Origin: Candidatus Nealsoniibacteriota bacterium | GTDB taxonomy: Bacteria > Patescibacteriota > Minisyncoccia > Minisyncoccales > RBG-13-42-11 | Assembly (NCBI GenBank): GCA_026396115.1 | Contig: JAPLXL010000003.1 | Coordinates: forward strand, 1-42,333 | Direction: 5' to 3' | Length of the DNA stretch: 42,333 nt | In this document: piece after piece, positions 9,551 through 42,190 of the stretch | Numbering within the stretch: position 1 is the first letter of the stretch | Layout of the letters: each line of letters begins with the position of its first letter | The notes under the pieces: generated by a model | What the model was told of the DNA's origin: nothing | The model's input: only the letters and a program-made list of their open reading frames with translations | Databases searched by the model: none | Made by a program: the position numbers and the translations under genes

Positions 9551-9608
9551 AGGCGAAGAGAACTTCGTTCTCTTCTTCACCTTCGCTTCCATAAATGGAA
9601 GCTCGGTA
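9551..9608. repeat. Stem-loop repeat family, full two-module copy
   Basis: gaagagaacttcgttctcttc + ttcaccttcgc + ttccataaatggaagctcggta; nearly the same as the copy inside tsaD. Confidence 0.9.
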
Positions 9609-13139: not shown

Positions 13140-13318
13140 CCTAGCTCTAAGCTAGTCGAAGAGGATAAATCCTCTTCTTCGCCCCTCGCTGCGGCTCGGG
13201 TAGTCGAAGAGATAAATCTCTTCTTCAGCCACCGAGCTTTCACGTAGTGAAAGTGAAGGTGAAAAAGAGGCTTGCCTCTTTGCCTTCATTGCGATTCGGC
13301 TAAGCAACTACTAAGTAG
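13140..13318 (+). repeat. Array of several stem-loop repeat modules between pilB and pilC
   Basis: gaagaggataaatcctcttc, gaagagataaatctcttc, gctttcacgtagtgaaagtgaag, aagaggcttgcctctt, with variable linkers. Confidence 0.9.
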
Positions 13319-16400: not shown

Positions 16401-16458
16401 AAAGTCGAAGAGGACTTCGTCTTCTTCTTCACCTTCACTTCCTTCGGAAGCTTGGTAT
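16401..16458 (+). repeat. Stem-loop repeat copy abutting a start codon
   Basis: gtcgaagaggacttcgtcttcttcttcaccttcacttccttcggaagcttggtat|ATG. Confidence 0.9.
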
Positions 16459-18960: not shown

Positions 18961-19124
18961 GTTCAATGAATCTTTGATTCATTTCACCTTTGAGTTCAAT
19001 GAATCTTTGATTCATTTCGATCTTCATTAAATTTTCAATTTAATTCGATGTTCAATGAATTTTTAATTATCTAGCTTCCGAAGGAAGCGAAGATGGAGAA
19101 GAGATTTATCTCTTCGACTTATTT
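18961..19124 (+). repeat. Array of AT-rich and GAAGAG-type stem-loops upstream of pilM
   Basis: ttcaatgaatctttgattcatttc x2, attaaattttcaatttaat, cttccgaaggaag, gaagagatttatctcttc. Confidence 0.9.
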
Positions 19125-21308: not shown

Positions 21309-21361
21309 ATCAATGAATTTTCAATTCATTTCAATCTTCAATAAATTTTCAATTTATTTCG
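21309..21361 (+). repeat. AT-rich stem-loop repeats
   Basis: caatgaattttcaattcatttcaat and caataaattttcaatttatttcg, ending at ATG 21362. Confidence 0.85.
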
Positions 21362-21664
21362 ATGCTTAAAATAAAATTTAAAAAAATTAAAAAATCTTTA
21401 AAAAATCTGCCAAGAATTTTGGCAGAAAAAAGTTTTTTGACTTTTTTAGGGTTATTTTTTGTCGTTTTTCTTTTGGGATTGGCTGTTTTTTATTATTCCT
21501 ATGTTTTTTTAACCGAAATTTCCGATGAAACCATAGAGGAAGAAAAACTATTGAAACTTGACATGGAAAGCCAGCAAAAAGTTTTAGAGGAATGGCAAAA
21601 AAGAAACGAAAAATTCTTGGAGGCCGATATCAAAGAATATCCCGACCCCTTTAAAGTTGACTAA
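21362..21664 (+). CDS. Small single-TM protein of the pilus operon
   Basis: ORF with one TM segment and charged tail. Confidence 0.55.
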   Translation: MLKIKFKKIKKSLKNLPRILAEKSFLTFLGLFFVVFLLGLAVFYYSYVFLTEISDETIEEEKLLKLDMESQQKVLEEWQKRNEKFLEADIKEYPDPFKVD

Positions 21665-23408: not shown

Positions 23409-23443
23409 ATGTTCAATGAATTTTTAATTCATTTCAATTTTCA
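23409..23443 (+). repeat. AT-rich stem-loop repeat
   Basis: gttcaatgaatttttaattcatttcaattttca|ATG. Confidence 0.85.
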
Positions 23444-23854
23444 ATGTTTAATTTTTTTAAAAAACAAAAAAAAGAGCCAAAAGACTTAAAAGAAATTTTA
23501 GAGCAATTTAAGGTTTTAGAAGGCAGTTTTGATAAACTTTCTCTAGAATTTGAGAATTTAAAGAAAGAACACCAGTTTTCGGTTCAGAAGGTTGGAATTA
23601 TAAGATTCAATCCTTTTTCCGAAGTTGGCGGAGACCAAAGCTTTTCTATTGCTTTGCTTGATGGAAACGATGACGGTTTGGTGATTACCAGTTTTTATAC
23701 GAGAGAGGGAAACAGAGTCTACGGAAAACCAATAAAAAATGGAAAATCTCAATACGCGTTTTCTCAGGAAGAAATAAAAGCAATTGAAATGGCAGAAAAA
23801 AGTAGTAGTAATAGATATGATGAAGAATCAAAAAACAACAACTCGGCCACCTGA
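23444..23854 (+). CDS. DUF4446-like protein
   Basis: VGIIRFNPFSEVGGDQSFSIALLDGNDDGLVITSFYTREGNRVYGKPIKNG resembles DUF4446. Confidence 0.75.
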   Translation: MFNFFKKQKKEPKDLKEILEQFKVLEGSFDKLSLEFENLKKEHQFSVQKVGIIRFNPFSEVGGDQSFSIALLDGNDDGLVITSFYTREGNRVYGKPIKNGKSQYAFSQEEIKAIEMAEKSSSNRYDEESKNNNSAT

Positions 23855-25472
23855 GCCGCAGCAAGAGGGGAAGAAGAGAATTTATCCTCTTCGACCTCCC
23901 GAGCCGCAGCGAGGGGCGGAGAAGAAGATTTATCTTCTTCGACCGCCAATCGTGGTGGTTCTGGGACATATTGATCATGGGAAGACCTCTCTCCTTACCG
24001 CCATAAAGGATTTTAAAATTTTAGAGAAAGAAACCGGAGGTATTACTCAACATATCGGGGCTTACCAGATTGAACATCAGGGTAAAAAAATCACTTTTCT
24101 TGATACGCCGGGCCATGAGGCTTTTTCTCAAATGCGCTCCAGGGGAGCGAAAGTGGCTGATATCGCAATTTTAGTTATTGATGCGGCAGAAGGAGTAAAG
24201 TCTCAAACAAAAGAAGCAATCTCACATATTAAAAAAGCCGGAATTCCGGTAATAATTGCTTTAAATAAAATTGACAAGCCTGAAGCCAATCCGGAAAAAG
24301 CAAAAAGAGAATTATCTCAAGAAGGTTTTTTAGTTGAGTCATTGGGAGGTAAGGTTCCTTCGCTTGAAATTTCAGCTAAAACCAAAAAGGGTATCCCCGA
24401 ACTTTTAGAATTAATTTTATTGGTAGCAGAAATGGAGGAATTAAAAGCCGATTCTCAAAAACCGGGGGAAGGCCTGGTCATTGAATCGTATTTGGACAAT
24501 TTAAGAGGCCCTACCGCCACCTTGCTTTTAACCGACGGCCACTTGAAAATAGGAGATACGGTTGGCACAAATTCAGCTTCTGTCAGAATTAAAAACATAG
24601 AAAATTTTCAAAAAACTTCCGTTCAAAAGGCACTTCCTTCAGACCCCGTGATTATTTTCGGTTTTAATCAAGCTCCTGGAGTTGGTGAGAAATTTAAGGT
24701 TTTTCCGGATTTGGCAAGCGCTGAAAATTATATTAAAACTTCAAAGGGCGGAGAAGATAAATCTTCTTCTTCCCCCTTCGCTGTCGCTCGGGAAGAAAAA
24801 GGAAAAGCTTCGGAAGTTTTAGAGGCAACTGATCAACAAAAGGTTTTAAATTTAATTTTAAAAACCGATGTTTTGGGATCTGCCGAAGCTATGGAAGGAA
24901 TTTTAAACTCTTTTCCGCAAGAAAAGATTTTTTTAAAGATTCTAAAATCAGAAACAGGCAACATTAACGAATCCGATATTAAATTAGCTCTCAGCAGCAG
25001 AGCAACAATTTTGGGCTTTAGGGTGAAGATGGATTTTATTGCTAAAAAGATGGCCGAGCGGGAAAAAGTTAAGATAATAATTTTTGAAGTTATTTATGAT
25101 TTGGTCGAGAGAGTGCGTAAAATAATGGAAAAAATTGTTGAACCGAAAGAATTGAGGACGGATTTTGGAAAAGTAAAAGTTTTAGCTAAATTTCTAACAG
25201 AAAAAAACCGCCAGATTATTGGTGGTAGAGTAACAGAGGGGGAGATAAAAAAAGGAGCTCTGATCGAAGTTTTTAGACCTGCCCGCGACGCAGGTGGAGG
25301 GAGGACAGAAGAGAAGATTGGACAAGGAAAAATGATTAACCTCCAAAGAAACAAAAAAAATGCAGTTTTAATCTCAAAAGGAGAAGAATGCGGGATTTTA
25401 TTTGAGGGAGATGTAATAATTGAAGAAGGAGATATTTTGTTGTTTTACACAGAAGAAAAGAAAAAAGGCTAG
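23817..25472 (+). CDS. infB: Translation initiation factor IF-2, short N-terminus
   Basis: VVVLGHIDHGKTSLLTAI, FLDTPGHEAF, LNKIDKP. Start uncertain (ORF 23784; ATG 23817/23820 also possible). Confidence 0.93.
   Translation: MMKNQKTTTRPPEPQQEGKKRIYPLRPPEPQRGAEKKIYLLRPPIVVVLGHIDHGKTSLLTAIKDFKILEKETGGITQHIGAYQIEHQGKKITFLDTPGHEAFSQMRSRGAKVADIAILVIDAAEGVKSQTKEAISHIKKAGIPVIIALNKIDKPEANPEKAKRELSQEGFLVESLGGKVPSLEISAKTKKGIPELLELILLVAEMEELKADSQKPGEGLVIESYLDNLRGPTATLLLTDGHLKIGDTVGTNSASVRIKNIENFQKTSVQKALPSDPVIIFGFNQAPGVGEKFKVFPDLASAENYIKTSKGGEDKSSSSPFAVAREEKGKASEVLEATDQQKVLNLILKTDVLGSAEAMEGILNSFPQEKIFLKILKSETGNINESDIKLALSSRATILGFRVKMDFIAKKMAEREKVKIIIFEVIYDLVERVRKIMEKIVEPKELRTDFGKVKVLAKFLTEKNRQIIGGRVTEGEIKKGALIEVFRPARDAGGGRTEEKIGQGKMINLQRNKKNAVLISKGEECGILFEGDVIIEEGDILLFYTEEKKKG
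23849..23948 (+). repeat. Two stem-loop repeats in frame within the infB N-terminus
   Basis: ctgagccgcagcaagaggggaagaagagaatttatcctcttcgac and cccgagccgcagcgaggggcggagaagaagatttatcttcttcgac. Confidence 0.9.
24747..24796 (+). repeat. Stem-loop repeat in frame inside infB
   Basis: ggcggagaagataaatcttcttcttcccccttcgctgtcgctcggg; encodes GGEDKSSSSPFAVAR. Confidence 0.88.
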
Positions 25473-30386: not shown

Positions 30387-30598
30387 TATATACCGAGCTT
30401 CCATTACCGAGTTCCCATTTATGGGAACGAGGTGGAAGAAGAGGGCGAATCCTTCTTCGCCCTATAGAAGCGAATCGAAGAACATTCGTTCTTCTCTACC
30501 CTTCGCTGTGACTCGGGTAGGTGAAAAAGAGGGCGAAGAAAAGTTTTTCTTCTTTCGTCTCGTCTTTGACTCGACGGTCGAAGTCCTCTTCGCCTATT
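30387..30598. repeat. Array of stem-loop repeats upstream of ftsH
   Basis: ttcccatttatgggaa, gaagagggcgaatccttcttcgccc, gaagaacattcgttcttc, cttcgctgtgactcgggtaggtg, gtctcgtctttgactcgac. Confidence 0.9.
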
Positions 30599-30685: not shown

Positions 30686-31834
30686 CTAATCAACCAATTT
30701 TAAACTTATTCGGTGTTCAACAGAATTAATGGAAAGGATTTGAAATTTGTATTTTTCGCTTATTTTTAAGGCTTCTTCCATTTTTGTTTTGGTTCCAAAT
30801 TCGGAAATATGGCAAAGTCCTTGAATTTTTGGAGTAATTTGAACAAAGACTCCGTAATGATAAAATTTGGTTACTTTACCTTCAATCACATCTCCTTTTT
30901 TATATTCTTTTTCAATATCTTTCCAGGGATCTTTTTTTAGGGCTTTCAAAGACAGGGAAACTTTATTATCGGAAATAGAAATAATTTTTGCCTTAACTTT
31001 TTCCCCCACTTTTACAACATTAGCCGGATTTTCGATCAGTTGCCAGTCCAATTCGGATATATGTATCAACCCCTCGATAAATTCAGGACAAGTTATTTCT
31101 AATTCTTGCCCTTTATAAGTCTGAGTCGAAGAAGATTCCTTTTTCTCCACCTCAGCTAACGCTTCGGTAGCTGAAGATTCGGCGGGGAACTTCATAAAAG
31201 CTCCAAAGTCGGTGATACCGGTGATTTCTCCTTTAACCACATCACCGACTTTATAATTTTTTAAAATTTCTTTTATTCTCCCATCTTTTTTGGCTTTTTC
31301 TGATAAAATCAATTTTCCTTGTTTTGAATCTAAATCAAGAACTTTAACTTCCATTTCTTTCCCAACAAATTTTTGAAGTTCTCCAATGATTTTAGAAACA
31401 TCCCCCTTTTCTACTCGAGGATAGTGTTCTGGCAGTAATTGGGAAACCGGTAAAAAAGCAGGGATGCCAAAAACTTCTGCTAAAAGACCTCCCTTGTTTG
31501 TCCCCAAAATTCTAACCTTTAGAGTTTCATCCTTGTCTTTTTGCTGTTTCAATTTTTCCCAGGTTAATTCGTCAGAGGCTTGGCTTAAAGAGAGTTCAAT
31601 ATAACCCTCTTCGTTCTCGAGGTCTATAATTTTGGCAAAAAGAGTGCTGCCAATTTTTGAATTCTTTATTTCTTCTCTGGCTTCTTGAAATTCTTTTCCG
31701 TAGATTATGCCTGTTCCCATCGGCCCCAAATCTAAAAAAACCGCAGACCTTGCTTTGCCGATAATTTTTCCTTCTACAATTTCACCAACTCTAAGAGGCT
31801 TTAAGAGATTATTTTTTTCCAGTAAATCTTTCAT
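30686..31834 (-). CDS. rpsA: 30S ribosomal protein S1 (four S1 domains)
   Basis: Repeated S1 motifs: GEIVEGKIIGK, GDVVKGEITGITDFGAFM, EGLIHISELDW, GDVIEGKVTKFYHYGVFVQI. Confidence 0.92.
   Translation of the reverse strand: MKDLLEKNNLLKPLRVGEIVEGKIIGKARSAVFLDLGPMGTGIIYGKEFQEAREEIKNSKIGSTLFAKIIDLENEEGYIELSLSQASDELTWEKLKQQKDKDETLKVRILGTNKGGLLAEVFGIPAFLPVSQLLPEHYPRVEKGDVSKIIGELQKFVGKEMEVKVLDLDSKQGKLILSEKAKKDGRIKEILKNYKVGDVVKGEITGITDFGAFMKFPAESSATEALAEVEKKESSSTQTYKGQELEITCPEFIEGLIHISELDWQLIENPANVVKVGEKVKAKIISISDNKVSLSLKALKKDPWKDIEKEYKKGDVIEGKVTKFYHYGVFVQITPKIQGLCHISEFGTKTKMEEALKISEKYKFQILSINSVEHRISLKLVD
31118..31190 (-). repeat. Degenerate stem-loop repeat in frame inside rpsA
   Basis: Encodes FPAESSATEALAEVEKKESSSTQ between two halves of an S1 domain. 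Confidence 0.7.
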
Positions 31835-33054: not shown

Positions 33055-33165
33055 TTGACGAACCGAGTTTCCGAAGGAAGCGAAGTCGAAGAGATAAATC
33101 TCTTCTTCGCCCTTCGTTGCGACTCGGGTAGGTGAAGAAGAGTACAAAGTACTCTTCGCCTAATA
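33055..33165 (+). repeat. Stem-loop repeat array upstream of gyrA
   Basis: gtttccgaaggaagc, gaagagataaatctcttc, cttcgttgcgactcgggtagg, gaagagtacaaagtactcttc. Confidence 0.9.
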
Positions 33166-35663: not shown

Positions 35664-35719
35664 AGGCGAAGAGGACTTCGTCCTCTTCTTTATCTTCGCT
35701 TCCTTCGGAAGCTTGCTAT
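35664..35719 (+). repeat. Stem-loop repeat copy abutting the methyltransferase start
   Basis: gcgaagaggacttcgtcctcttctttatcttcgcttccttcggaagcttgctat|ATG. Confidence 0.9.
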
Positions 35720-37144: not shown

Positions 37145-37226
37145 GTCGGAGTGGCGGAACCGGAAGACGCGCTGGGTCTAGGACCCAGTGGGGAAACCCG
37201 TGAGAGTTCAAGTCTCTCCTCCGACA
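37145..37226 (+). tRNA. tRNA-Leu(TAG)
   Basis: CTGGG TCTAGGA CCCAG; long variable arm; GTCGGAG/CTCCGAC acceptor. Confidence 0.92.
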
Positions 37227-37273
37227 CCCGAGCCGTAGTGAAGGGTAAAGAAGAAGATTTATCTTCTTCGCCC
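37227..37273. repeat. Stem-loop repeat copy directly at the 3' end of tRNA-Leu
   Basis: cccgagccgtagtgaagggtaaagaagaagatttatcttcttcgccc. Confidence 0.85.
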
Positions 37274-37336
37274 ACCTAAAAATCCTGTTTTTGGCAGGAT
37301 TTTTTGTTTAGAAATTAAAAATTTCTAATTTTTAAT

Positions 37337-38026
37337 TTATTCTCTAACAATAATTCTTCTTTTCTTTTCTCTTAAAATTTTAGGGATTCTAATTGTCAGA
37401 ATGTTGTTTTTCATTTCAGCCACAGCTCTTTGCGGGTCAACTTCAGAGGGCAGTATCACTTCTCTTGAAAAAGGTCCCCAAAAACATTCTTGGATAAAAT
37501 AGTCGCCGTTTTCTTCAAATGGTTTTTCTCTGCTTCCCTTAATGGTAATAATGTCTCTTTCAATTGAAATATCTAAATTTTCCGGCTTAACTCCGGCAAT
37601 TGCTGACTGAATAACCAAATCATTTTCGGTTTGATAAACATCAATTGCCAATTGTCCCTCTTCTATTTTGCCAAAAGAGGGCCATTTTTTTTCTTTTTGT
37701 TCCTTTAGTTCTTTTGGAGGTTCTTTTTCAGCCTGTTCTTTAACTTCTTCTTCTTCTCTTTCTTCTTCTCTTTCTTCTTCTGGCATTTTTGTTTGTGTTT
37801 CTAATTTTCTAATTTTTACTTCCGGCGATTCCTTTTCTTTTTTGGCAGTCGAAGAGAACTTCATTCTCTTCTCCACCTTCGCTTCCTTAGGAAGCTCGGT
37901 TTTTAATTTTTTCGGTTCTTTGCCCGTTTTTGTTTCAATTGGTTTTTCTTCTATTTCTTTTTCTGGTTCAGCAATTGGTTCTTCAATATCCATCCCCCTT
38001 TTTAATTTTTCAAAAAATGACGCCAT
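37337..38026 (-). CDS. Hsp20/alpha-crystallin family protein with long charged N-terminus
   Basis: LAIDVYQTENDLVIQSAIAGVKPENLDISIERDIITIKGSREKPFEENGDYFIQECFWGPFSREVILPSEVD...LTIRIPKI. Confidence 0.9.
   Translation of the reverse strand: MASFFEKLKRGMDIEEPIAEPEKEIEEKPIETKTGKEPKKLKTELPKEAKVEKRMKFSSTAKKEKESPEVKIRKLETQTKMPEEEREEEREEEEVKEQAEKEPPKELKEQKEKKWPSFGKIEEGQLAIDVYQTENDLVIQSAIAGVKPENLDISIERDIITIKGSREKPFEENGDYFIQECFWGPFSREVILPSEVDPQRAVAEMKNNILTIRIPKILREKKRRIIVRE
37847..37903 (-). repeat. Stem-loop repeat in frame inside the hsp20 gene
   Basis: gtcgaagagaacttcattctcttctccaccttcgcttccttaggaagctcggt; encodes TELPKEAKVEKRMKFSST. Confidence 0.9.
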
Positions 38027-38795: not shown

Positions 38796-41036
38796 CTAAA
38801 CCGGCCAGTTTTCAATCATTAGACATTTCTTTTTGTTTTTAATCGGCAGCTTTTGATAAATTTCTTCGGTGATAAAAGGGATAAAGGGATGTAAAAGTTC
38901 CAAGTTGGTTTTTAAAATTTGCAAAAGAAGGTATTGGCTAGCCTCCTTTTCTTTTTTATTGGAGCCCTGAAGCCGAGATTTTTCTTCCTCAATAATTTTA
39001 TCGCAAAAAATATGCCAGAAATAATGATAAATTTTTTCTGCCGCTTGGTAAAATTTGAAGGAGTCCATCAACTTGGTAATTTCTTTTGAAAAGCTGTTTA
39101 ATTCCCTTAAAATTTTCTTATCTTTTTTAGTTAATTTTGGCTTAATTTTGGGGTCAAAACCTTTTAGATTCATCAAGACAAACCGGCTGGCATTCCAGAT
39201 TTTATTGGCAAAATTGCGCATCCCCCTGATTTTATTATCGCTGATACAAATATCGGTTCCCGGCGTTGTTCCAAAGATGACTGACATCCTTAAAGCGTCT
39301 GCTCCATATTTTTGCACCATATCCATTGGATCGAGAACATTTCCTTTACTCTTTGACATCTTCTGACCATTTTCATCAACTACTCGGCAGTGAATATGAA
39401 CTATTTTAAAGGGAACCTCTTTTGTCAAATAAAGGCCGAACATTATCATTCTGGCAACCCAGAAAAACAAAATGTCCCACAGCGTATCCAAGACCGATGT
39501 TGGGTAGAAATATTTAAAGTCTTTGCTCTTTTGATAGCCAAGCGCGGTCAGCGGCCATTGTCCAGATAAAAACCAGGTGTCAAAGGTGTCTGTTTCTTGC
39601 AGAATTTTTTTACCTTTACATTTTTGGCAAGCTTTTTCCTCCAAAGAATAAACAGGATTTTTACTAGCGCTTAAACTTTGCAATCCTTTTTTGATTTCAG
39701 CAAAGTTGTATTTGTCCTTTAAATCTTTATAGGTTCCGTTTATTTTATTGCCTTTTTTATTAATAAAATTGATTAAAATATCAGGGTTGCAATCCAAGCA
39801 ATACCAAACTGGTATTTGAGGGCCCCAGACAATTTGTCTTCCAATATTCCAGTCACGGACATTTCTCATCCAATTAAGATACATTTTTTTAAATCTCTTT
39901 TCTGGAATAATCTTTATTCTTTCTTTTTCAACAGCTTCTAAGGCTGGTTTTGCCAAAGGTCCGATTTTCAAAAACCATTGAGGCATAATTAACGGCTCAA
40001 TAGTTGTTTTACAACGATAACAAATTCCTATTGAGTGCTTCAAGGGTTCAGTTTTTACCAGTTTTTCTGCTTTTTCCAAATCATTTATTGTTTTTTCCCG
40101 AGCCGTTTTTACTGTCAGGCCAAGATACTTTTCTGGCAGATTTGTCATTCTTCCATTTTTGTCAATAATGGTGATGGTTTCTAGGTTGTGAGTTTGGCCG
40201 ATTTCGTAGTCAGTGGTGTCGTGGCCAGGGGTTACCTTCAAGACTCCGGTACCAAAGTTAACATCGATTCTTTTGTCGGCGATTATGGGTACCTCTTTGT
40301 TAATGAGCGGGATAACAGCCTTTTTACCAATGAGATTTTTATATCTTTTGTCTGTTGGATTTACGGCTACGGCCACGTCCGCAAAAATAGTTTCTGGTCT
40401 CGTGGTGGCAATTTGCAAAGTCGTGTAATCCAAATAGTAGAGGAACTCGTCTTTTTCTACATAGTCTACTTCCAGGTCAGAAAAAGCAGTGCCGCATTTG
40501 GTGCAAAAATTCACAATTCTTTCTCCTCTGTAAATTAAGCCATCCCGATGCAGTTTACGGAAAGTGTCAAAAACTATTTTGACAATGTTTGGTTCAAGAC
40601 TGTAATGGTACCTAGTCCAGTCTAAAGAAAATCCTAATTTTTTAAGTTGTTCCCTATTTATATTTTTATTTTTTTCAACAAATTCAGAAATCATTTTGTA
40701 TAAGGTTTTTCTGCCAAAATCAAAACGGCTTTTTCCTTCTTTGGCCAATCTTTTTTCAAAGACAAACTGCGTTTCAATCCCAGCATGGTCACCTCCTGGC
40801 AACCAGAGAGTCGGTCTGCCTCGCATCCGATAGTATCTAATTATAATATCTTCTACTGCAAAAAGAACATGACCCATGTGCAGAGGATCATTGGCGTTGG
40901 GGAGAGGTAAGAGGATGGTGAAAGGTTTTTTACGAGGAACGATTTTGGGAGTAAACCAGCCACCTTTTTCCCAAAACTTATATATTTTACCTTCAACTTT
41001 TTTTGGTTCGTAAGTTTTAGAAAGTTCTGAGTTCAT
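38796..41036 (-). CDS. valS: Valyl-tRNA synthetase
   Basis: LPNANDPLHMGHVLF, GGDHAGIETQ, KMSKSKGNVLDP. Confidence 0.93.
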   Translation of the reverse strand: MNSELSKTYEPKKVEGKIYKFWEKGGWFTPKIVPRKKPFTILLPLPNANDPLHMGHVLFAVEDIIIRYYRMRGRPTLWLPGGDHAGIETQFVFEKRLAKEGKSRFDFGRKTLYKMISEFVEKNKNINREQLKKLGFSLDWTRYHYSLEPNIVKIVFDTFRKLHRDGLIYRGERIVNFCTKCGTAFSDLEVDYVEKDEFLYYLDYTTLQIATTRPETIFADVAVAVNPTDKRYKNLIGKKAVIPLINKEVPIIADKRIDVNFGTGVLKVTPGHDTTDYEIGQTHNLETITIIDKNGRMTNLPEKYLGLTVKTAREKTINDLEKAEKLVKTEPLKHSIGICYRCKTTIEPLIMPQWFLKIGPLAKPALEAVEKERIKIIPEKRFKKMYLNWMRNVRDWNIGRQIVWGPQIPVWYCLDCNPDILINFINKKGNKINGTYKDLKDKYNFAEIKKGLQSLSASKNPVYSLEEKACQKCKGKKILQETDTFDTWFLSGQWPLTALGYQKSKDFKYFYPTSVLDTLWDILFFWVARMIMFGLYLTKEVPFKIVHIHCRVVDENGQKMSKSKGNVLDPMDMVQKYGADALRMSVIFGTTPGTDICISDNKIRGMRNFANKIWNASRFVLMNLKGFDPKIKPKLTKKDKKILRELNSFSKEITKLMDSFKFYQAAEKIYHYFWHIFCDKIIEEEKSRLQGSNKKEKEASQYLLLQILKTNLELLHPFIPFITEEIYQKLPIKNKKKCLMIENWPV

Positions 41037-42190
41037 AATTTTTCATCTATTTTAAGATTAGCATTAGCTTTAATCTTTTTCCATACCTTTTTTTTATACC
41101 ACTTGAAATATCCGGCAATTGCTACCATTGCGGCATTGTCGGTGCAAAAATTTTTTGCCGGAACCAAAAAATTTATTGCTAATTGTCGATTGCTAATTGT
41201 TAATTGAAATTGTTTTCTCAGCTCAGTATTAGCAGCGACGCCGCCGCTCAAAATGATTGATTTTGCTTTATAATCTTTAGCCACTTTTAAGGTTTTATGG
41301 ATTAAAACATCAATAATTGCCTGCTGAGTTTCAGTACACATTTCCTCTATATATTTTTTTGACCTTCTGACTTTTGAAGAACGTTTTTTGAAATCATACA
41401 AAACCGCTGTTTTCAAACCGGAGAAACTAAAATCATAATTTTTTTGATAAATCATCGGTCTCGGCAAAAAAACACGGGTTCGACCTGTGTATTTTTGCCT
41501 GTGTTTTTTAGCCAGGGTTGAAATAATCGGACCACCGGGGAAGCCGAGCCCTAAAATTCTAGCTGCTTTATCAAAACATTCACCAGCCGCATCGTCGCGA
41601 GTTTCTCCTAAAATTTTGTATTGGCCGAATTTCTTCACCCCATTAGAAGATTTTCGATTTCTAACGGGGTTCATTAAAATAAGTTGAGTGTGCCCGCCAC
41701 TGACCACTAAACAAATTGCCGGAAAGATATTTTTGTAATTTGTAATTTGTAATTTGGAATTTTCGCCAATAAAATTGGCGAGAATGTGTGCCTCTATGTG
41801 ATTTATTGGGACTATTGGCAATTTCATCTTTTCTGCCAACTCCTTGGCAAAATTTATTCCTGTCCATAAGCAAAGTTCCAGACCGGGGCCAATGGTAACT
41901 GCAATTAAGTTAATTTTTGGATTACCGGCTTCTTTTAAAGCTCTTTTTAAAACTATCGGTAAATTTTTTTGATGTTCTTTTTTAGCTAAAAAAGGATAAA
42001 CCCCTCCATATTTTGCATGTAGTTTTACTTGCGATGAAACCACATTACTTCTAATTTCGAAAGGCGAAGAGAACTTCGTTCTCTTCTTCACCTTCGTTTC
42101 CATAAATGGAAGCTCGGTTTTCGAATTTCTAATTTCTAAAACAGCGACGCAGGTATCATCGCAACTTGTTTCAATGGCTAAAATAATCAT
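41033..42190 (-). CDS. tsaD: tRNA t6A synthase subunit TsaD
   Basis: ILAIETSCDDTCVAVLE, NHIEAHILANF, LVVSGGHTQLILM, FSGLKTAV, SGGVAANTELR. Confidence 0.94.
   Translation of the reverse strand: MIILAIETSCDDTCVAVLEIRNSKTELPFMETKVKKRTKFSSPFEIRSNVVSSQVKLHAKYGGVYPFLAKKEHQKNLPIVLKRALKEAGNPKINLIAVTIGPGLELCLWTGINFAKELAEKMKLPIVPINHIEAHILANFIGENSKLQITNYKNIFPAICLVVSGGHTQLILMNPVRNRKSSNGVKKFGQYKILGETRDDAAGECFDKAARILGLGFPGGPIISTLAKKHRQKYTGRTRVFLPRPMIYQKNYDFSFSGLKTAVLYDFKKRSSKVRRSKKYIEEMCTETQQAIIDVLIHKTLKVAKDYKAKSIILSGGVAANTELRKQFQLTISNRQLAINFLVPAKNFCTDNAAMVAIAGYFKWYKKKVWKKIKANANLKIDEKL
41637..41677 (-). repeat. NPVR-type palindromic repeat in frame inside tsaD
   Basis: accccattagaagattttcgatttctaacggggttcat; encodes MNPVRNRKSSNGV. 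Confidence 0.85.
42063..42118 (-). repeat. Stem-loop repeat in frame inside tsaD
   Basis: ggcgaagagaacttcgttctcttcttcaccttcgtttccataaatggaagctcggt; encodes TELPFMETKVKKRTKFSSP. Confidence 0.92.

Follow-up and report, generated by a model that had tools for sequence, protein, structure and literature searches.

The stretch of DNA considered here (the window, 42,333 nt) is an entire contig, C8, of a genome of 792,029 bp in 8 contigs. Short in-frame inserts lie in the window's minus-strand genes for the heat-shock protein Hsp20, the tRNA-modifying enzyme TsaD and an rpsA-like S1-domain protein. The hsp20 open reading frame (37337-38026, minus strand) contains a 54-nt element at 37847-37900 on the same strand, such that the protein reads LK-TELPKEAKVEKRMKFSST-AKK with the peptide TELPKEAKVEKRMKFSST occupying residues 43-60. 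The tsaD open reading frame (41033-42190, minus strand) reads NSK-TELPFMETKVKKRTKFSSP-FEI, and here a 57-nt element at 42062-42118 (minus strand) provides residues 25-43, TELPFMETKVKKRTKFSSP. The third host, at 30686-31834 (minus strand), encodes a protein of four S1 domains and holds a 45-nt element at 31124-31168 (minus strand) that is translated as TEALAEVEKKESSST. Frame names begin with S where the reading is on the strand of the element itself, as in Hsp20, and with A where it is antisense; the digit that follows gives the offset of the first full codon. All three inserts are read in frame S0. The first two elements belong to a repeat family termed F1 and the third to a family termed F3.

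When the Hsp20 copy is used as the query in a nucleotide search it matches the TsaD copy with 87% identity (E 1e-14). As the same query matches 47 places in the genome, with other copies down to E 1e-17, a chance likeness between the two inserts is excluded. Counted by eye, 13 of the 19 aligned residues are identical in the two peptides, and the 54-nt and the 57-nt copy differ in their first hairpin loop. An earlier note on this DNA had taken the two inserts to be one repeat that, having entered both genes with identical orientation and frame, gives unrelated proteins a common peptide of about 19 residues, and this is borne out, since both are in S0 and the Hsp20 and TsaD proteins have no Pfam family in common. 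The same note placed the element at 37847-37903, where the start is right but the end lies 3 nt too far, the true end being 37900. It also saw in rpsA a diverged third example; this is a real insert with the same superfamily ends, but it is a member of the separate 45-nt family, with a different body, and not of F1.

A real domain homology, which would be the competing source of a shared peptide, is excluded for TsaD. Among 23 aligned TsaD orthologues the insert is present only in this genome and in genome G026, and an exact empty site, NSK|FEI, is found in a relative (L070, the tsaD of G045), where the protein runs uninterrupted as EIRNSK-FEILSN. This near-total absence from the orthologues, together with the lack of a common Pfam family, led to the rejection of shared-domain homology as the origin of the peptide. 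Within Hsp20 the insert falls in a poorly conserved, charged region for which the empty site is inexact, far from the Hsp20/alpha-crystallin domain that Pfam assigns to residues 131-225. In an AlphaFold2 model of TsaD the insert occupies the turn between the strands at residues 12-20 and 44-53, and residues 23-39 have a pLDDT below 50, so the insert is predicted to form an unstructured loop between two strands.

An F1 peptide, TEFPFMETKVKKRTKSSSP, is also present within the same TsaD loop in G026, whose genome belongs to another family (L043, 1578-1635); it may reflect shared descent, transfer or a second insertion. In the TsaD of many relatives, including L070, the alignment breaks into two matches near residue 88-95, and this suggests that other, longer inserts are found at a second site.

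Repeat families and their copies in the window

Profile HMM searches of the genome, with copies counted at E 1e-4, located three families with a total of about 256 copies: 145 of F1, 90 of F2 and 21 of F3. A narrow regular expression had recovered just 69 copies of F1, and the profile HMMs were used in its place. F1 has the consensus ACCGAGCTTCCGAAGGAAGCGAAGGTGAAGAAGAGGACGAAGTCCTCTTCGCCT and a unit of 54 or 57 nt, F2 the consensus ACCCGAGCCGCAGCGAAGGGGGAAGAAGAAGATTTATCTTCTTCGCCC and a unit of 48 nt, and F3, with about 20 copies, the consensus ACCGAAGCTTCAGCTGAGGTGGAGAAGAAGGAATCTTCTTCGACT (also written TEASAEVEKKESSST) and a unit of 45 nt. F3 is frequently nested inside F1, and a variant F1 is found nested within the loop of another F1. 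The two stems of F1 are paired in 96-97% of cells across the 54- and 57-nt copies, with 6 and 10 pairs that have changed on both sides, and the covariation score lies above that of every shuffle and far above the slid controls. This covariation of the stems indicates that the F1 palindromes are maintained at the level of DNA or RNA. An Rfam scan of the window returned tRNAs only.

Further copies are scattered along the window, both within and between genes. The plus-strand gene for initiation factor IF-2, infB, contains an F2 copy at 24745-24793 (minus strand), which is read antisense to the element as GEDKSSSSPFAVARE. The N-terminal leader of infB holds two head-to-tail F2 copies (23849-23945, plus strand, comprising 23849-23897 and 23897-23945) that have a 48-nt period and encode PPEPQQEGKKRIYPLR PPEPQRGAEKKIYLLR; the second copy alone passes the strict coding test described below. 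In the interval from gyrA to a methyltransferase-like gene whose start codon is uncertain, an F1 copy (35664-35717, minus strand) is either an N-terminal extension of the methyltransferase-like open reading frame (AKRTSSSSLSSLPSEACYM) or a mere 5' leader. Two more F1 copies precede gene starts: one lies 2 nt ahead of the start codon (ATG) of a prepilin-like gene whose product begins MKGFTLIE (16403-16456, minus strand), the other directly upstream of the start of ftsH, a minus-strand gene (30406-30462, plus strand). Intergenic copies include a 57-nt F1 at 9551-9607 (minus strand) that is 98% identical to the TsaD copy, an F2 at 13153-13201 (minus strand) and an F1-like element at 13231-13285 (plus strand). 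Just upstream of gyrA an F2 copy (33083-33129, minus strand) abuts an F1 fragment at 33130-33161.

A further F2 copy (37226-37274, plus strand) begins on the last base of a tRNA gene (37145-37226), abutting its 3' end, and may have an effect on 3' processing. IF-2 has an F2 copy in the same region both here and in genome G006 (L078, G006:C3:39997-40045), and the opposite orientation and frame of the two copies suggest that they are independent insertions into one tolerant loop. The window also contains a separate AT-rich palindromic repeat (TCAATGAATCTTTGATTCATTTC...), which forms short arrays at 18963-19083, 21310-21369 and 23413-23472.

Junctions, distribution and the search for a mover

All three families follow a common junction rule, TY(N4)| outside the left end and CTTC(N4)| at the right end. 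In the left flank, T at position -6 and Y (C or T) at position -5 are found in about 95-100% of full copies in each family, equally for coding and noncoding copies, and the right-end CTTC is present in 149 of 174 copies (70/87 in F1, 62/68 in F2 and 17/19 in F3). Since both junctions are located 4 nt past a CTTC-like motif, the element's own right end would itself be a target, which would explain the head-to-tail arrays. TY is found at 13 of 35 of the matching empty sites of relatives (37%), against a background of 14% in the same codon phase, and this enrichment shows that the motif belongs to the target. No general target duplication was found for flanking repeats of 3-11 nt. In F1, 7-nt flanking repeats are weakly over-represented, with 6-7 matching nucleotides in 5 copies versus 1.0 expected; examples are the tsaD copy (window 42055-42125) and the F1 copies at C5:23394 and C3:2182. 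A 7-nt duplication is, moreover, incompatible with an in-frame coding insertion such as that in tsaD, as the reading frame would be broken.

Genome-wide, 17 of the 63 full noncoding F1 copies lie antisense exactly 2 nt before an ATG start, a position comparable to that of the window copies at 16403-16456 and 30406-30462. In our reading, the complement of the TY target is here provided by an ATG with an A after it. Such an element may contribute the ribosome-binding region of the gene or take its place.

Of 99 genomes searched with the F1 query, 9 give a match, this genome counted, and no other carrier was found in a wider phylum sample of 380 genomes at E <= 1e-6. Exact matches to the F1 pattern in GTDB come from Parcubacteria CG1_02_39_15, Ca. 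Nealsonbacteria CG01_land_8_20_14_3_00_12, CG2_30_36_38 and one further bin, the named genomes all being of the Parcubacteria type, and viral contigs gave no match to the pattern. The system looks to be distributed patchily within one Parcubacteria order. A search of the open-access literature found no paper on such elements in Parcubacteria. As to the protein that moves them, this genome has no gene for Y1_Tnp (PF01797, at E <= 0.001), RVT_1, rve or DDE_Tnp_1, and a list of the genes common to this genome and the carrier G006 but not G003, inspected by eye, contains no obvious transposase.

One possible account of how the elements move, itself compatible with the explanation favoured below, is that they are remnants of HUH/Y1-type single-strand transposition of the IS200/IS605 or REP kind, with the transposase acting in trans now or formerly; we regard this as tenable but less than probable. 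The elements share with the IS200/IS605 group a hairpin close to each end, the absence of a general target duplication and a left-flank motif that is matched at the right end, to which the head-to-tail arrays can be added, and Y1_Tnp genes are present in the carriers G001, G006, G022 and G026. Unlike IS200/IS605, however, the cut would be 4 nt from the motif, and the element is too short for an ordinary pair of IS ends. Moreover, Y1_Tnp is lacking in this genome and was not found in the carrier G008, whereas many non-carriers have it too (32 of 59 genomes overall). A Y1 transposase could act in trans or have been lost.

Other short repeats of bacteria share some of these properties. According to PMC3733652, REPs are 20-40 bp long, most of them in superfamilies tagged with GTAG or CGTC at one end. 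Like REPs and REPINs with their RAYT, the present elements are short palindromic repeats of high copy number; unlike them, they are 45-57 nt long, are often intragenic (REPs being extragenic by name), have no GTAG or CGTC tag in the consensus and are not accompanied by a Y1/RAYT gene in this genome. The MITEs ERIC/RU-1, Correia/NEMIS and YPAL are likewise non-autonomous, and their open frames become joined to genes of the host (PMC2229807; PMC2759123). These MITEs are, however, about 100-200 bp long and mostly have terminal inverted repeats and target duplications. Here the consensus ends ACCGAGC.../...TTCGCCT are not inverted repeats, and target duplication is not general.

Reading frames of the coding copies

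Genes were called with our own dicodon script, which predicted 771 of them, and an element was taken as coding in a given frame if the joined flanking peptide had a junction-spanning homologue in the same-family genomes G006/G003. By this strict filter 85 of the 256 elements are coding, in 61 assigned genes (about 8% of the genes), although one of the 85, that at 35664, possibly lies in an N-terminal leader and is not coding. For 38 of the 61 host genes a near-clean empty site, with no more than 3 aligned gap positions near the junction, is found in a relative. The hosts include UvrA, UvrB, UvrC, ThrRS, AlaRS, PheT, TopA, LepA, FtsZ, NusA, MurB, acetate--CoA ligase, S9 and L3, and the cleanest case among them is TsaD. 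The earlier suggestion of a route to new protein segments is upheld in that added segments are common (about 61 genes), the peptides themselves being predicted from the DNA. Lengths divisible by three are found in 41 of 42 coding F2 copies as against 7 of 12 intergenic ones (p 0.001), and in 19 of 24 coding F1 copies as against 21 of 39 (p 0.06). The few coding copies whose length is not a multiple of three are either compensated or misjudged.

The frames were tallied for full copies with a length divisible by three, against a null of open frames multiplied by target availability; the p values are uncorrected for the number of frames, and the antisense frames of F2 are numbered for the 48-nt unit. 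For F1 (n = 19) there are 10 copies in S0, the TELP..KVKKR frame, where 3.4 are expected (p 7e-4), followed by S2 with 4, A1 with 3, and A2 and S1 with 1 each, whilst A0 has none where 3.7 are expected. For F2 (n = 42) the counts are 21 in A1 (14.3 expected), 13 in S0 (7.3 expected), 3 each in S1 and S2, 1 in A0 and 1 in A2, where 9.0 are expected (p 5e-4). The spread over all six frames is therefore not even, contrary to the outcome that the earlier note had named as telling against it. A frame preference does exist, but not the single preferred open orientation that had been proposed, as F1 is also read in S2, A1, A2 and S1, and F2 favours A1 as well as S0. Genome G006 shows the same left motif and the same frame bias for F2. 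Each family consensus has 4 or 5 of its six frames open, which is no more than in shuffles, and the idea that the element has been selected for openness in many frames was consequently set aside as unsupported.

The preferred frames are hydrophilic: the hydrophobic fraction of the used frames is 0.172, as compared with 0.265+/-0.015 for random open frames, and is lower than in all 5000 draws. The frame bias hence looks like the survival of tolerable peptides after insertion and not an insertion preference. Part of the hydropathy bias may have been acquired by later selection, since copies could drift after insertion. Alternatively, the bias in frame and orientation may be mechanistic, with insertion directed by codon phase or transcription, either through the codon position of TY(N4) or because one template strand is attacked. 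A target motif does exist and its availability varies by frame, at 13-25% per orientation and frame class, but the availability is highest in A1 and not in S0. With this availability already in the null, the excess of F1 in S0 and the depletion of F2 in A2 and F1 in A0 persist. F1 and F2, moreover, each use both orientations, and the less hydrophobic frames are the ones used. A mechanistic origin of the bias is, for these reasons, unlikely.

It is much less likely still that selection on its sequence keeps the shared peptide in several proteins as a conserved functional motif, such as a tag or binding segment. Synonymous differences from the consensus make up 32 of 82 in the S0-coding copies versus 54 of 205 in noncoding copies in the same frame, a small excess in which shared ancestry is uncorrected; against this, nearly all TsaD orthologues are without the peptide, elsewhere this DNA is read in five or more frames and is common between genes, and the TsaD insert is predicted to be unstructured. 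Equally improbable is that the inserts are transcribed but not translated, through removal or skipping at the RNA level or bypassing by the ribosome, for although the hairpins are strong and translational bypassing over palindromic elements has a precedent in the mitochondria of the yeast Magnusiomyces (PMC6649704), the coding copies favour lengths divisible by three (F2, p 0.001) and frames that are hydrophilic and free of stops, properties that matter only if the inserts are translated.

With good confidence, then, we explain the shared peptide as a translated short, non-autonomous palindromic mobile repeat, of which selection keeps the tolerated copies. F1 (54/57 nt), F2 (48 nt) and F3 (45 nt) are related families, each F1 copy being foldable into two hairpins. 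Copies enter at a short target, with TY 5-6 nt to the left of the insertion point, bringing their own CTTC(N4) right end and generating no general target duplication, and a single enzyme would cut at (CT)TY(N4)|. As the usual unit lengths are divisible by three and several frames contain no stop, insertion into a gene would often merely add 15-19 residues. Purifying selection would then retain those copies whose site is a tolerant turn or linker and whose frame is hydrophilic. The TsaD and Hsp20 peptides would be alike because both are surviving F1 copies in the most tolerated frame of F1. This explanation implies no gain in catalysis or regulation for TsaD or Hsp20.

In-frame palindromic insertions have reportedly been described before in Rickettsia and Wolbachia, the Rickettsia palindromic elements (RPEs) by Ogata et al. 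in 2000 and 2002. RPEs are 100-150 bp long and are found inside preexisting open reading frames without destroying the frame (PMC3767692), and the first study reported them in 19 reading frames (PMC2229807). The RPEs and the Wolbachia palindromic elements resemble the present ones as dispersed hairpin-forming repeats that are in frame in many conserved genes and also intergenic (PMC3767692; PMC2229807). In contrast to RPEs, the elements described here are 45-57 nt long, have two hairpins in the case of F1, occur in a different phylum and have a junction rule of their own. RPEs are the closest analogue, and the present system looks independent and smaller, as set apart by length, host and junction rule and not by sequence alignment.

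If this is true, an apparently independent system in Parcubacteria, affecting about 61 genes of a 0.8-Mb genome, would make such insertion a recurrent route to protein segments in reduced genomes. The empty sites in close relatives, the two families with different frame preferences and the defined target motif together make it possible to test whether the insertion machinery picks the inserts or selection filters them, and the present evidence favours filtering. Extra loops and peptide similarities in the proteins of these bacteria may, as a warning, be mobile DNA and not domains. More tentatively, the elements may constitute a mobile system of its own kind, in which three related mini-palindromes with units that are mostly multiples of three would be joined to DNA at each end by an unrecognised enzyme, 4 nt beyond a CTTC-like motif, leaving a reduced genome with near-identical unstructured peptides in about 8% of its genes, essential single-copy enzymes included.

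Two further hosts have features of their own. MurB has two head-to-tail F2 units here (G000:C2:138209-138305, L011) and three in the same region in G006 (C6:16291-16435), which probably represents a shared insertion followed by tandem expansion. Finally, a single open reading frame at L033:17517-19571, the first half of which resembles MiaB and the second half MiaA in an apparent fusion, carries two F2 copies.
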